In this document: one piece after another, positions 4,482-20,409 of the stretch
Layout: each line of letters begins with the position of its first letter
Numbering within the stretch: the stretch's first letter is position 1
Origin: a virus
DNA length: 20,409 bases
IMG/VR virus record: IMGVR_UViG_3300025889_001198
Location: 1-20,409 of that record
Reading direction: 5' to 3' (one strand)
Translations under genes and position numbers: made by a program
The notes under the pieces: model-generated
The model's input: only the letters and a program-made list of their open reading frames with translations
Told to the model about the DNA's origin: nothing
The model's database searches: none

Positions 4482-5291
4482 ATGACCACCAAGACCAATT
4501 TGGCGCAGCCTTCCTTCAACAGCACATCATGGAATACGCCGCTCAATTCCAACTTTAACATCACAAATCTTGCTTTTGGCGAGACGGAATCCGTTAACGT
4601 CGCTTCAGGCAACGTCACGTTAACAGCCACGCAGGCGCAGAACCAGAGGATTGCTGTTACCGGCTCTCCGGGCGTTGCAAGGACCGTCAACCTGCCCAAT
4701 GGCGTAACCGGTTCCTGGGTTATCACAAATGGCTCAAACGCCTCTGTGACGATCAAGAGCGATGGCGGTGGCGCGACAGGGACGGCGGTTGCTTCAGGCT
4801 ACTCAGCAACCGTCTTTGCAGCCGTATCTGGCGCCTCTGTTGAGGTATTTTCCGCTGAAAGCGATGTCATCAGAAAGACAGGTGATACCATGGTCGGGAC
4901 GCTTAACTGCGCCTCGAATGGATTTACAGTCGGATCAACCCAGCTTTATGTTTCAGGCGGAAACGTCTACACATCCGGCAACTTTTTCGCGACGTCCAAC
5001 GTCACGGCCTACAATACATCCGATGAGCGGCTGAAGGAAAACATCAAGACGATTGAAGGAGCCGTTGAGATCGTCAAAAAGCTTCGCGGCGTATCTTTTA
5101 CCAGCAAACTTGACAGCGAAGAATACATTGGCGTCATCGCTCAAGAGATTCAGTCTGTCCTCCCCCAGCTTGTCAGGCAGGGCGAAGAGGATGACTATTT
5201 GTATGTCGCTTATGGAAACATTGTCGGCGTCTTGATCAATGCTATTAAAGAATTGGCCGACAGGGTGGAGCGGCTGGAGGGAAATAAATGA
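4482..5291 (+). CDS. Tail fibre/spike protein with C-terminal S74 intramolecular chaperone
   Basis: 269 residues. The N-terminal ~170 are Asn/Thr/Ser/Gly/Val-rich beta-type repeats, typical of fibre shafts. From residue 180 the sequence SDERLKENI opens a classic Peptidase_S74 domain, followed by YIGVIAQEIQSVLPQLV and a helical end (INAIKELADRVERLEGNK). In this family the domain helps trimerise the fibre and then cuts itself off in front of the serine; here Ser180 and Lys185 are the expected catalytic pair. The start codon lies one base past the previous stop, and the stop overlaps the next ATG (ATGA), suggesting coupled translation of fibre components. The short shaft suggests a small side fibre or a distal part attached to another protein. 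The S74 assignment is strong; receptor and virion position are unknown. Confidence 0.88.
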   Translation: MTTKTNLAQPSFNSTSWNTPLNSNFNITNLAFGETESVNVASGNVTLTATQAQNQRIAVTGSPGVARTVNLPNGVTGSWVITNGSNASVTIKSDGGGATGTAVASGYSATVFAAVSGASVEVFSAESDVIRKTGDTMVGTLNCASNGFTVGSTQLYVSGGNVYTSGNFFATSNVTAYNTSDERLKENIKTIEGAVEIVKKLRGVSFTSKLDSEEYIGVIAQEIQSVLPQLVRQGEEDDYLYVAYGNIVGVLINAIKELADRVERLEGNK

Positions 5292-13845: not shown

Positions 13846-14970
13846 ATGACCGCCTATAAAATACATCCGCTTGCGGATCTATTCCCCTTTGCCTCAGAGA
13901 CCGACTTTGCGACGCTGGTGCAGGACATCAGCCGAAATGGTCTTCTGGAGCCGATCGTCCTTCTTGATGATGCCATCCTCGACGGCCGCAACAGATATCG
14001 AGCCTGCGCCAACGCCGGCGTCGAGCCCCGCTTCGTTCAATATGAAGGAAACGACCCCTTATCCTTCGTCGTCAGCAAGAACCTCGCCCGCCGGCATATG
14101 GACGAATCCCAGAGGTCTATGGTGGCTGCCAGAATTGCGGATATGCGGCAGGGTCAGAGAAATGACCTTGCTTCAATTGAAGCAACGTCTCAAACACAAG
14201 CCGCAGAAATGCTGAATGTTTCCAGAAGCACGGTTCAGCGCGCCAAAAAAGTTCTTGATTCCGGAGATCAAGATCTTATCGCCGCTGTAGATAGCGGCCG
14301 CATGCCAGTCTCTGTAGCGGCCAAAATTGCCGGCATCGAAGATCCGGAAGCCCGCAAGGAAATCATAAACGACTCCCGCCCGGATCAGGCGGTAAAGAAA
14401 TCTGCCCGAAAGCAGAAGGAGAGAAACCTCGCCAAAAAGCAGGTAAGTCTCCCGACAAAGAAATATGGGGTTATATACGCCGATCCGGAGTGGAAGTTCG
14501 AAACCTTCTCCGACAACGGGATGGACCGATCGGCAGACAATCATTATCCAACGAGCTCCACCGACGACATCTGCAAGCGCGACATCCCCTCAATCGCCGC
14601 GAAAGATTGCGTTCTGTTTCTTTGGGCGACAGTGCCGATGTTGCCAGATGCGCTGAAGGTGATGGAGGCTTGGGGTTTTACATACAAGTCCCAGGCTGTT
14701 TGGGTTAAGAACCGGATCGGGACGGGATACTGGTTTCGGAATGCTCATGAAATCCTGCTTGTCGGAACCAAAGGGAAAATCCCGGCTCCGGCTCCGGGTA
14801 TGCAGTGGCAGTCTGTGATACAGGCTGACGTCGGCGCCCATAGCGAAAAGCCGGAAGTCTTTTATGATCTTATTGAGGAGTATTTCCCGAGCCTTCCGAA
14901 GATTGAACTGAATGCGCGTAAATCCCGGGATGGCTGGGATTCGTGGGGAAATGAGGCTCCAACGTCATGA
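13846..14970 (+). CDS. ParB-like domain fused to MT-A70 adenine-N6 methyltransferase
   Basis: 374 residues. Residues 5-100 are a ParB N-terminal domain (KIHPLADLFP, ILDGRNRYRACANAG, SKNLARRHMDESQRSM). Residues ~117-137 form an HTH (TQAAEMLNVSRSTVQRAKKV). A Lys-rich linker leads to an MT-A70 domain from ~205: YGVIYADPEW (catalytic motif DPEW at 213-216 in place of the usual DPPW), DNHYPTSSTDDI, CVLFLWATVPML, SQAVWVKNRIGTGYWFRNAH, EILLVGT, HSEKPEVFYDLIE. It should methylate adenine N6 in DNA, guided by the ParB/HTH part; I recall the DPEW variant from related alphaproteobacterial proteins. There is no good ribosome site, but a five-codon reading (MKAST) from 13831 ends in TGA overlapping this ATG. 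The 3' end overlaps the resolvase start. Target sequence is unknown. Confidence 0.88.
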   Translation: MTAYKIHPLADLFPFASETDFATLVQDISRNGLLEPIVLLDDAILDGRNRYRACANAGVEPRFVQYEGNDPLSFVVSKNLARRHMDESQRSMVAARIADMRQGQRNDLASIEATSQTQAAEMLNVSRSTVQRAKKVLDSGDQDLIAAVDSGRMPVSVAAKIAGIEDPEARKEIINDSRPDQAVKKSARKQKERNLAKKQVSLPTKKYGVIYADPEWKFETFSDNGMDRSADNHYPTSSTDDICKRDIPSIAAKDCVLFLWATVPMLPDALKVMEAWGFTYKSQAVWVKNRIGTGYWFRNAHEILLVGTKGKIPAPAPGMQWQSVIQADVGAHSEKPEVFYDLIEEYFPSLPKIELNARKSRDGWDSWGNEAPTS

Positions 14971-15428
14971 TCAAAATTGAATGCATTATGGGCGTCGACC
15001 CCGGCGTCTCCGGGGCCGTAGCTTTCTATTTCCCCGAGCATCCGCATCGCATAGCCGTTTATGACATGCCGTCGATCGGCAAGGAGGTGAATGCGCCGCA
15101 CCTCGCCGAACTGGTTCATCAATACAAGCCCGACATAGCCTTTATCGAATTTGTCCACGCCATGCCGAAGCAGGGCGTCACAAGCTCTTTCAATTTTGGC
15201 ATGGCTTACGGGATGATGCGCGGCGTCATTGCCGCCTGTGGAATTCCGCAGCAGCTTGTGGCGCCAAATAAATGGAAGAAGCATTTCAACCTGAACGCCG
15301 ATAAGGAGCTATCCCGCCGGCTGGCGATTCTGACGTGGCCGGAAGCAGGAAAGTTCAATCGGAAAAAGGATGACGGCCGAGCTGAGGCGGCGTTGCTGGC
15401 GCTCTACGGCGCGGCCCTGACAAGATAA
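14967..15428 (+). CDS. RuvC-like Holliday junction resolvase
   Basis: 153 residues; the ATG overlaps the methyltransferase stop (ATGA). RuvC/RNase H-type motifs are in place: MGVDPGVSGAVAF with catalytic Asp11, the strand IAFIEFVHAMP with Glu61, the SSFNFGMAYGMMRGVIAACG helix typical of RuvC (F-x-G..G..G), and the C-terminal KDDGRAEAALLALYG carrying Asp136 and Glu140. Length is close to that of bacterial RuvC (~170), slightly shorter as in many phage versions. It should cut branched DNA formed during replication and recombination, which fits the nuclease, ssDNA-binding protein and PrimPol-helicase nearby. Junction specificity cannot be read, but the four acidic residues suggest an active enzyme. 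Confidence 0.87.
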   Translation: MIKIECIMGVDPGVSGAVAFYFPEHPHRIAVYDMPSIGKEVNAPHLAELVHQYKPDIAFIEFVHAMPKQGVTSSFNFGMAYGMMRGVIAACGIPQQLVAPNKWKKHFNLNADKELSRRLAILTWPEAGKFNRKKDDGRAEAALLALYGAALTR

Positions 15429-15450
15429 AAAAAGACCCCCTTGAAGGGGG
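15427..15450 (-). terminator. Intrinsic terminator oriented leftward
   Basis: CCCCC (15436-15440) and GGGGG (15446-15450) form a hairpin with a short TTGAA loop. Seven A's at 15427-15433 on the plus strand give a U-run directly after the stem on the minus strand, the signature of a leftward terminator. On the plus strand it has no U-run and would at best be a weak terminator after the resolvase gene. Confidence 0.6.
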
Positions 15451-15474
15451 CCCGTAGTTTGGGAGGAAACGCCC

Positions 15475-15555
15475 ATGAGGCGGGGGCCTCATGAACAAAA
15501 AGACCCTATCCCGCCTCTCGATGCCTGGTCAATAATAATCTTCGGTTTGATATAG
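15475..15555 (+). CDS. Possible 26-residue peptide with start codon inside a hairpin
   Basis: An ATG at 15475 has GGGAGG eight bases upstream and reads MRRGPHEQKDPIPPL followed by DAWSIIIFGLI before a TAG eight bases ahead of the helicase start. The end is hydrophobic. CATGAGGC (15474-15481) pairs perfectly with GCCTCATG (15486-15493), so the start codon sits in a stable stem. It could be a regulatory leader peptide, a small membrane peptide or chance. Confidence 0.35.
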   Translation: MRRGPHEQKDPIPPLDAWSIIIFGLI

Positions 15556-19101: not shown

Positions 19102-19518
19102 ATGCCGGTATCTTTCTGCAACAATAAACATCGTTGGCGGGCGGAAATATTCTTTGAAGGCGCACGCATGCATGTCGGCTATTTCATGCTCAAGGAGGAT
19201 GCGCAGACGGCGTTTGACGCAGTCATGGAAAAGATCAACGCCGGCAAGATACCGGATAGGCTCAGGACGAAGCAGTTGCGGCTGAAGCCCGGATCCAGAA
19301 AATACGGGAACATCGAACTCAGCAACGGGCAGACAATGCCAAAAACGCAGGTCGTGATACCGCTCGGGGATGGCAGAAAATTTACGATCGAAAGCAATAC
19401 GAGGGTCATCGTATCGGATGCTTGGTCCAAGCCATCAAGCGACGAGATACCGGCGCGAAAGCGTGTTATGTTTCTCAGCTTGCCGAGGGTAAAATGGCTT
19501 GAGCGGCCGGTGATATGA
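19102..19518 (+). CDS. AP2/ERF-like DNA-binding protein
   Basis: 138 residues from the ATG at 19102, with GGAGG six bases ahead. The N-terminal 45 residues (NNKHRWRAEIFFEGARMHVG, YFMLKEDAQTAFDAVMEKI) match the AP2-like fold: a three-strand sheet with the WRAxI and HxGYF patterns, followed by the helix EDAQTAFDAV. In phages this domain is mostly attached to HNH homing endonucleases and contacts DNA; here no HNH motif is present. The rest (KYGNIELSNGQTMPKTQVVI, GDGRKFTIESNTRVIVSD, ARKRVMFLSLPRVKW) is strand-rich and unrecognised. The stop overlaps the ATG of the C5 methyltransferase, so the two may act together, or this could be a degenerate homing-type insertion. Confidence 0.65.
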   Translation: MPVSFCNNKHRWRAEIFFEGARMHVGYFMLKEDAQTAFDAVMEKINAGKIPDRLRTKQLRLKPGSRKYGNIELSNGQTMPKTQVVIPLGDGRKFTIESNTRVIVSDAWSKPSSDEIPARKRVMFLSLPRVKWLERPVI

Positions 19519-20409
19519 TGGCGGCCTATTACAACGAGATTGAGCCGTTTGCAGCTCATGTTTTGAGGCAATTGATAAAGGACGGCGTCATCGCGGATGG
19601 CGATGTTGATACCAGGAGCATCGCCGATGTCGGACCAGAAGACCTTGCCGGATACACACAGTGCCATTTCTTCGCAGGAGGAGGGCTCTGGAGCGTTGCA
19701 GCCAGACTTGCAGGGTGGCCAGACGACAGACCTCTTTGGACAGGCTCCTGCCCGTGCCAGCCGTTCTCGGTCGCGGGTAAGGGAGCCGGAACCGACGATC
19801 CAAGGCACCTGTGGCCGCACTTTCATCGCCTCATCCGTTCCTGCCGGCCCCCTGTCGTCATGGGAGAACAGGTTGCGGGAGCGGCTGGCTATGGTTGGTT
19901 CGACGGAGTTCACGCTGATTTGGCGGGAGAAGGTTACGCCAGCCGGGCGGTTGATATCCCGGCTTGCTCCGCAAACGCGCCGCACATCCGATCAAGATTG
20001 TATTGGATCGCAGCAGACGTGGCCAACGCCGAAAGCATCGGACGGAGAGGGCGGCCGCACGACGAAGACGAAAGGCGGCGGGAACAGCCATCTGCCGATC
20101 CATGCGCGGGAGGCGGCGATGTGGCCAACGCCACGGACAACGGATGCGGCGGCGGGTCGGTTGCTGACGGAGGACGGGAAGCGCACGAACGAGACGGGGG
20201 CAATGACTTTTGGGGCGAACGTGTCGGACCTGGTGCATCTGTATCCGACGACGACGACATGGCCGACGCCGACGACGCGGGACGGGAAGGACGGACAATT
20301 CTGCCCGAACGTGCCGACGAACAGTCTGCTTGGTCGCGAGGTGTGGAATGGCGACGAGGCGCAGACGGAAAAACGAGGCGCGTTAAATCCGGAGTTCGTC
20401 TTCTGGTTG
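19515..20409 (+). CDS. DNA cytosine-C5 methyltransferase (3' partial)
   Basis: The ATG overlaps the AP2-like gene stop (ATGA), and the frame stays open to the window end (298 codons). C5-methyltransferase motifs are clear: CHFFAGGGLWSVAARLAGW (motif I, Gly-rich), SCPCQPFSVAGKG with the catalytic Cys81 of the PCQ loop (motif IV), PPVVMGEQVAG (motif VI, EQV instead of ENV), and APHIRSRLYWIA (motif VIII). Then comes an acidic and Gly-rich part with three D[VM]A[ND]A repeats, and near the edge WRRGADGKTRRVKSGVRLL, which looks like the start of the conserved C-terminal region. It should methylate cytosine to protect phage DNA. From 19627 onwards a second frame is also coding-like. The target sequence cannot be inferred. 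Confidence 0.88.
   Translation, partial: MMAAYYNEIEPFAAHVLRQLIKDGVIADGDVDTRSIADVGPEDLAGYTQCHFFAGGGLWSVAARLAGWPDDRPLWTGSCPCQPFSVAGKGAGTDDPRHLWPHFHRLIRSCRPPVVMGEQVAGAAGYGWFDGVHADLAGEGYASRAVDIPACSANAPHIRSRLYWIAADVANAESIGRRGRPHDEDERRREQPSADPCAGGGDVANATDNGCGGGSVADGGREAHERDGGNDFWGERVGPGASVSDDDDMADADDAGREGRTILPERADEQSAWSRGVEWRRGADGKTRRVKSGVRLLV
19627..20409 (+). CDS. Overlapping-frame WPTP-repeat protein within the methyltransferase gene (3' partial)
   Basis: In the +1 frame relative to the methyltransferase, an ATG at 19627 has AGGAG (19614-19618) eight bases ahead and is followed by 261 codons without stop to the window edge. The product (MSDQKTLPDTHSAISSQEEG, GGQTTDLFGQAPARAS, SSWENRLRERLAMVGSTEF, TLIWREKVTPAGRLISRLAP) has three WPTP motifs (residues 132, 166 and 212), each followed by a D two to four residues on, and ends NPEFVFWL at the edge. 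I recall phage proteins with this same order (TLPDT start, TLxWKxxxTPxGR, WPTP, NPEFVxWL) annotated as hypothetical or methyltransferase-linked. No function is known to me. Alternative: a conserved by-product of the methyltransferase frame, though the ribosome site and family-like pattern argue against that. Confidence 0.65.
   Translation, partial: MSDQKTLPDTHSAISSQEEGSGALQPDLQGGQTTDLFGQAPARASRSRSRVREPEPTIQGTCGRTFIASSVPAGPLSSWENRLRERLAMVGSTEFTLIWREKVTPAGRLISRLAPQTRRTSDQDCIGSQQTWPTPKASDGEGGRTTKTKGGGNSHLPIHAREAAMWPTPRTTDAAAGRLLTEDGKRTNETGAMTFGANVSDLVHLYPTTTTWPTPTTRDGKDGQFCPNVPTNSLLGREVWNGDEAQTEKRGALNPEFVFWL

Follow-up and report, generated by a model that had tools for sequence, protein, structure and literature searches.

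The locus and its two reading frames

The window analysed here is the whole of a 20,409-base virus fragment (IMG/VR record IMGVR_UViG_3300025889_001198). Two overlapping open reading frames lie at the end of its forward strand. The first, alpha (19515-20409, starting at ATG 19515, frame 0), is a C5-cytosine methyltransferase frame (PF00145, 2.1e-12; phrog_363, 8.8e-62). The second, beta (19627-20409), lies in the +1 frame, matches phrog_1008 (1.7e-22) and aligns with the +1 proteins of relatives. As the record is a fragment, both ORFs are cut at the contig end and neither stop codon is present. The original prediction had described an overlap of 261 codons that was open in both frames from 19627 to 20409, and its coordinates and motifs were reproduced on the sequence. 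The AGGAG ribosome-binding site that it assigned to the +1 frame was found on the forward strand at 19614-19618, 8 bases before the ATG at 19627; a Shine-Dalgarno match and an ATG at this place are shared by 68 of 133 relatives.

All features of the pair are on the forward strand. Alpha harbours the motif I region HFFAGGG (19665-19685; HFFAGIG in the consensus of the family alignment), motif IV with the catalytic cysteine (PCQPFS, 19752-19769), motif VI (GEQV, 19863-19874) and motif VIII (APHIRSRLYW, 19977-20006). PCQPFS, GEQ and RxR are invariant in the family alignment. At 19665-19691 the window reads HFFAGGGLW vs. HFFAGIGGW in the family; since leucine takes the place of the final glycine in the AdoMet loop, this copy of alpha may be weakened.

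Beta contains putative recognition modules followed by motif IX. Module 1 (WPTPKASDGEGG..., 20020-20121) is nearly identical to a module of another locus (L002), module 2 (WPTPRTTDAAAG..., 20122-20259) was recognised from the module families of relatives, and module 3 with its linker (WPTPTTRDGKDG...FCPNVPTNSLLGREVW, 20260-20373) has a near-identical counterpart in Komagataeibacter phage phiKX1 (L056). A count by eye between the two copies of module 3 gave 26 identical residues of 31 in the beta frame and only about 15 of the 31 in the alpha frame. The first part of motif IX (RGALNPEFVFWL..., 20374-20409) was identified by hhalign comparison to canonical and single-chain C5-methyltransferases. 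The contig end cuts this motif, so that its last part is missing, and motif X of alpha would fall past the same point.

A 12-base repeat had been proposed to drive motifs in both proteins. The dual reading was confirmed: the copies at 20019-20030, 20121-20132 and 20259-20270 give DVANA, DVANA and DMADA in frame 0 and TWPTP, MWPTP and TWPTP in the +1 frame. The idea of an independent repeat did not stand, as each 12-mer is the head of one of the three modules. In module-head DNA generally (GTGGCCGACGCC-like), alpha reads VADA and beta reads WPTP.

Elsewhere in the window, the gene at 13846-14970 encodes an MT-A70 (m6A-type) methyltransferase domain (residues 207-370; PF05063, 4e-24) preceded by an N-terminal half that is ParB-like by eye; counting alpha/beta, the phage therefore has two genes for DNA methyltransferases. 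A cell-wall hydrolase domain (PF07486) is encoded at 96-2714, and a Peptidase S74 (endosialidase chaperone) domain ends a probable tail protein at 4482-5291. On the reverse strand, 15419-15488 gave a borderline Rfam match to the suhB/mmgR sRNA (41.1 vs. a cut-off of 41). This sRNA family is alphaproteobacterial, and the match hints at an alphaproteobacterial host.

Dual coding of the overlap is under selection

Long overlapping genes on the same strand are rare and usually doubted. When the alpha codons of the window gene were shuffled synonymously, the +1 overlap stayed open in 8.5% of the shuffles (P 0.085); consequently, its openness in this gene alone is not significant. Relatives were then compared. 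A search with the alpha protein alone retrieved 43 distinct genes, of which 39 (3.3 expected) had an open +1 frame across the stretch that begins before motif VI and reaches motif X. The +2 frame of the same genes was close to normal (346 stops vs. 394 expected). Stops in the +1 frame of close homologues, the outcome set beforehand as speaking against the overlap, thus did not occur. After motif VI, 171 genes showed 7 stops in the +1 frame (395 expected) and 1245 in the +2 frame (1345 expected). Even at 36% G+C, in a locus from Bacteroidetes, both frames are open. The two frames are jointly open over more than 90% of beta in 212 of 216 loci, and the remaining four fall short only because beta runs on downstream. 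A +1 ATG preceded by a Shine-Dalgarno sequence was present at the beta start in 68 of 133 genes, where synonymous shuffles predict 9.5. Selection on the beta start site exceeds what alpha itself requires.

The third codon position of alpha is the second position of beta. The ratio of third- to first-position substitutions (p3/p1) was 1.2-1.3 in the recognition part of the nested genes, vs. about 3 in the alpha-only N-terminus and 2.5-4.7 in flank genes. This flank control was computed without the near-identical Roseovarius loci, where tandem repeats gave a bin with p1 above p3. In single-chain actinophage homologues, in which the same segment lies in frame 0, the ratio was 2.2-2.6, and 70 +1 stops were present in 4705 codons. 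The reduction of synonymous change in the overlap that had been looked for was therefore found (1.2-1.3 vs. 2.2-4.7 in the controls). Third-position freedom was lost from near motif VI onward, the region where the per-window diversity of third positions also drops. The first approximately 70 residues of beta are open, yet show little amino-acid constraint.

There is purifying selection in both frames of this same-strand pair. The overlap is a genuine gene pair, old and widespread, whose dual coding is under selection; stop avoidance, loss of third-position freedom and a selected beta start in relatives bear out the original view of two protein families in overlapping frames. The nested pair was present at hundreds of loci, in phages and in genomes of many phyla. 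One Roseovarius chromosome harbours five near-identical copies, with tandem repeats adjoining (loci L197-L202). A second protein encoded without the methyltransferase frame was also searched for, and no standalone beta gene was present among the 216 beta loci (best 80 loci per scan), although distant ones may exist.

Methyltransferase motifs are divided between the two frames

Alpha carries motifs I-VIII. Canonical enzymes are matched by PF00145 through to its last positions, but the match of alpha stops around position 160-182 of 324. In the 217 nested loci, motif X was located in the alpha frame 212 times and never in beta, and motif IX was absent from the alpha frame throughout. Motif IX was in beta in 205 of 217, a count that is partly favoured by the search, since the beta profile that retrieved most loci included WLMG. 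The C-terminal pattern of beta is RGALNPxFxxWLMGxPxEW. Compared with ten canonical C5-methyltransferases, the beta profile had motif IX as its sole match, which scored above 60 of 60 column shuffles but was weak in absolute terms (probability 2%). The C-terminal half of beta matched single-chain actinophage enzymes at motif IX with a probability of 97% (E 5e-11).

Pfam and NCBIfam gave no match for any of 96 beta proteins, the family being phrog_1008 in PHROGs, and PDB sequences searched with the beta profile gave chance hits only. Structure models were built on input from which public-record loci had been removed. The model of alpha (pTM 0.73) resembles M.HhaI (E 3.6e-8), and its recognition stretch (171-197) is disordered. 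Beta modelled alone was poor (pTM 0.28) and Foldseek found no fold match for this model; such a model fits a subunit that would fold only within a complex.

Modules of 30-50 residues belong to at least 21 families in the relatives, where they occur at varying positions and with varying neighbours; at about 40 residues they are exchangeable units like those of the multispecific modular C5-methyltransferases. One module family is common to nested and single-chain enzymes. This distribution looks like an exchange of recognition cassettes. The modules are probably recognition domains, each of which may read its own DNA sequence. Locus L047 (3077-4057) has an insert in the beta frame that encodes an endonuclease VII/HNH-like domain (phrog_3322, 2e-27); beta continues on either side of the insert and the alpha frame is also open through it. 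Rfam gave no match to a group I intron at this insertion. An in-frame insertion of this kind would fit a translated beta.

In Mycobacteriophage Wachhund and its relatives, motifs I-VIII, "LPTPxxxDGNGG" modules, motif IX (FPEWMMGWPAGWVTE) and motif X (GNGVVPQQA) are all encoded in one ORF, and phrog_1008 matches the Wachhund single chain at residues 282-472 (E 9e-73). In Gordonia phage Jumbo, motifs I-VIII are in one frame and the modules, motif IX and motif X are in the +1 frame. From the single chains of the Wachhund type and the layout of Jumbo, it follows that the C-terminal half of beta is the segment of recognition and motif IX, one frame over. Beta is most likely this displaced segment of the same enzyme and not an unrelated newcomer. 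Both parts of the original suggestion, overprinting and a dual-coded specificity region, survive in this form, with the second-frame protein now specified.

Other layouts were also met. Two actinophage loci (L279 and L252) have some modules in the +1 frame but return to frame 0 for motifs IX and X, a layout between the single-chain and nested ones. In Krischvirus LF73P4 (L258, 1486-2341), motifs I-VIII of alpha, motif X and motif IX occupy three frames while keeping the same relative shift, as though a single indel had moved both readings. On a tree of the catalytic core (100 columns, many unresolved forks) the nested forms need 1-3 state changes, and canonical enzymes group with most of the single-chain ones. 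The direction of evolution is suggested but not settled by this tree, because it has too few columns.

A proposed two-subunit enzyme and the alternatives

We propose, with a probability of roughly 85%, that the locus encodes a two-subunit phage C5-cytosine methyltransferase of the M.EcoHK31I type, with both subunits encoded by one stretch of DNA in different frames. Alpha would bind AdoMet and catalyse the reaction through motifs I-VIII, and would also provide the C-terminal motif X in relatives. Beta, with its own Shine-Dalgarno sequence and ATG, would supply a row of exchangeable WPTP-headed recognition modules and then motif IX. Together the two polypeptides would form a single enzyme for the methylation of phage DNA, with protection from host restriction as its probable role. 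Displacement would account for the layout: the segment of recognition and motif IX, which is in frame with motifs I-VIII and X in the single chain, would lie one frame over here. The alpha reading through the recognition segment (the VANA/VADA repeats) may be a disordered spacer, and the N-terminal half of beta may be an out-of-frame reading of the catalytic region.

The small subunit of M.EcoHK31I is reportedly read from another frame inside the large-subunit gene, a nesting seen here in 212 of 216 loci. In M.EcoHK31I, a two-polypeptide enzyme, motifs I-VIII and X belong to the larger chain and motif IX to the smaller (PMC3404938); compared by motif layout, the pair described here is like M.EcoHK31I and M.EaeI in this division. 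The predicted recognition domain of M.EcoHK31I was placed in alpha, its large subunit (PMC3404938), whereas the WPTP cassettes are in the beta frame here; unlike the shared layout, this placement would count against the recognition role proposed for beta. M.AquI is also split between motifs VIII and IX, but its small subunit carries both IX and X (PMC3404938), while motif X stays in alpha in the nested loci (in beta in 0 of 217). Jumbo, a member of this family, looks AquI-like. The single-chain actinophage enzymes share a homologous catalytic half, the PTP modules and motif IX, and differ in having everything in one frame and one polypeptide. The multispecific C5-methyltransferases of Bacillus phages (SPR, phi3T) have rows of exchangeable recognition modules of roughly 40 residues. 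Their likeness is by description, and they differ in being single chains that are not dual-coded.

The same nested pair has been deposited with both ORFs annotated in E. coli K1ind phages ("C-specific methylase" and "Mte8-like protein") and in Paenibacillus phage Jacopo (gp56/57), and these annotations give no explanation of the relation between the two ORFs. In the literature on overprinted phage methyltransferases, no description of this family was found among open-licence papers. One enzyme is already known to follow the nested principle; the breadth and modularity of the arrangement and its single-chain relatives appear undescribed.

Could beta instead be an overprinted protein of unrelated function, for example anti-restriction or regulatory, with a de novo origin within the methyltransferase gene? 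Beta is a real protein family with neither a Pfam/NCBIfam assignment among 96 members nor a fold match, as such a newcomer might be. Its modules and motif IX, however, are found in frame in single-chain methyltransferases, and alpha is without motif IX in every locus checked, so that we regard this origin as improbable. Somewhat less probable still is a single polypeptide for which the ribosome would undergo programmed frameshifting into the +1 frame and later return to alpha. Motifs I-VIII, IX and X would then be joined in their canonical order, and the layout of Jumbo would need one shift only; against this, the nested form would need two shifts, the beta start with its Shine-Dalgarno sequence is under selection, and M.EcoHK31I is a two-polypeptide enzyme (PMC3404938).

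We consider it very improbable, and the least probable of these alternatives, that a G+C-rich codon bias alone keeps an untranslated +1 frame open. The non-significant openness of the window gene alone (P 0.085) and the free third positions in the first third of the overlap are what such a bias would give. Stops are nevertheless avoided family-wide, also at 36% G+C, third-position freedom is lost compared to both the single-chain and the flank controls, and the beta start site is conserved. The two-subunit methyltransferase remains the preferred reading.

On a broader scale, we see about even odds that one methyltransferase family shifts its segment of recognition and motif IX between frames, giving single-chain, AquI-like and nested enzymes, that phages swap cassettes kept open in two frames, and that the specificity code is dual-coded across much of the bacterial domain. 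The nested pair combines hundreds of loci with single-chain natural controls and a concrete proposed function for the second frame. Because annotation mostly calls one ORF and there is no Pfam or NCBIfam model of beta, half of a common phage enzyme has been missed, and alpha expressed alone would look inactive. The family offers a testable route for the origin of overlapping genes, in which an existing domain is displaced to another frame rather than invented from nothing, and its modules would serve as a reservoir of new C5 specificities.
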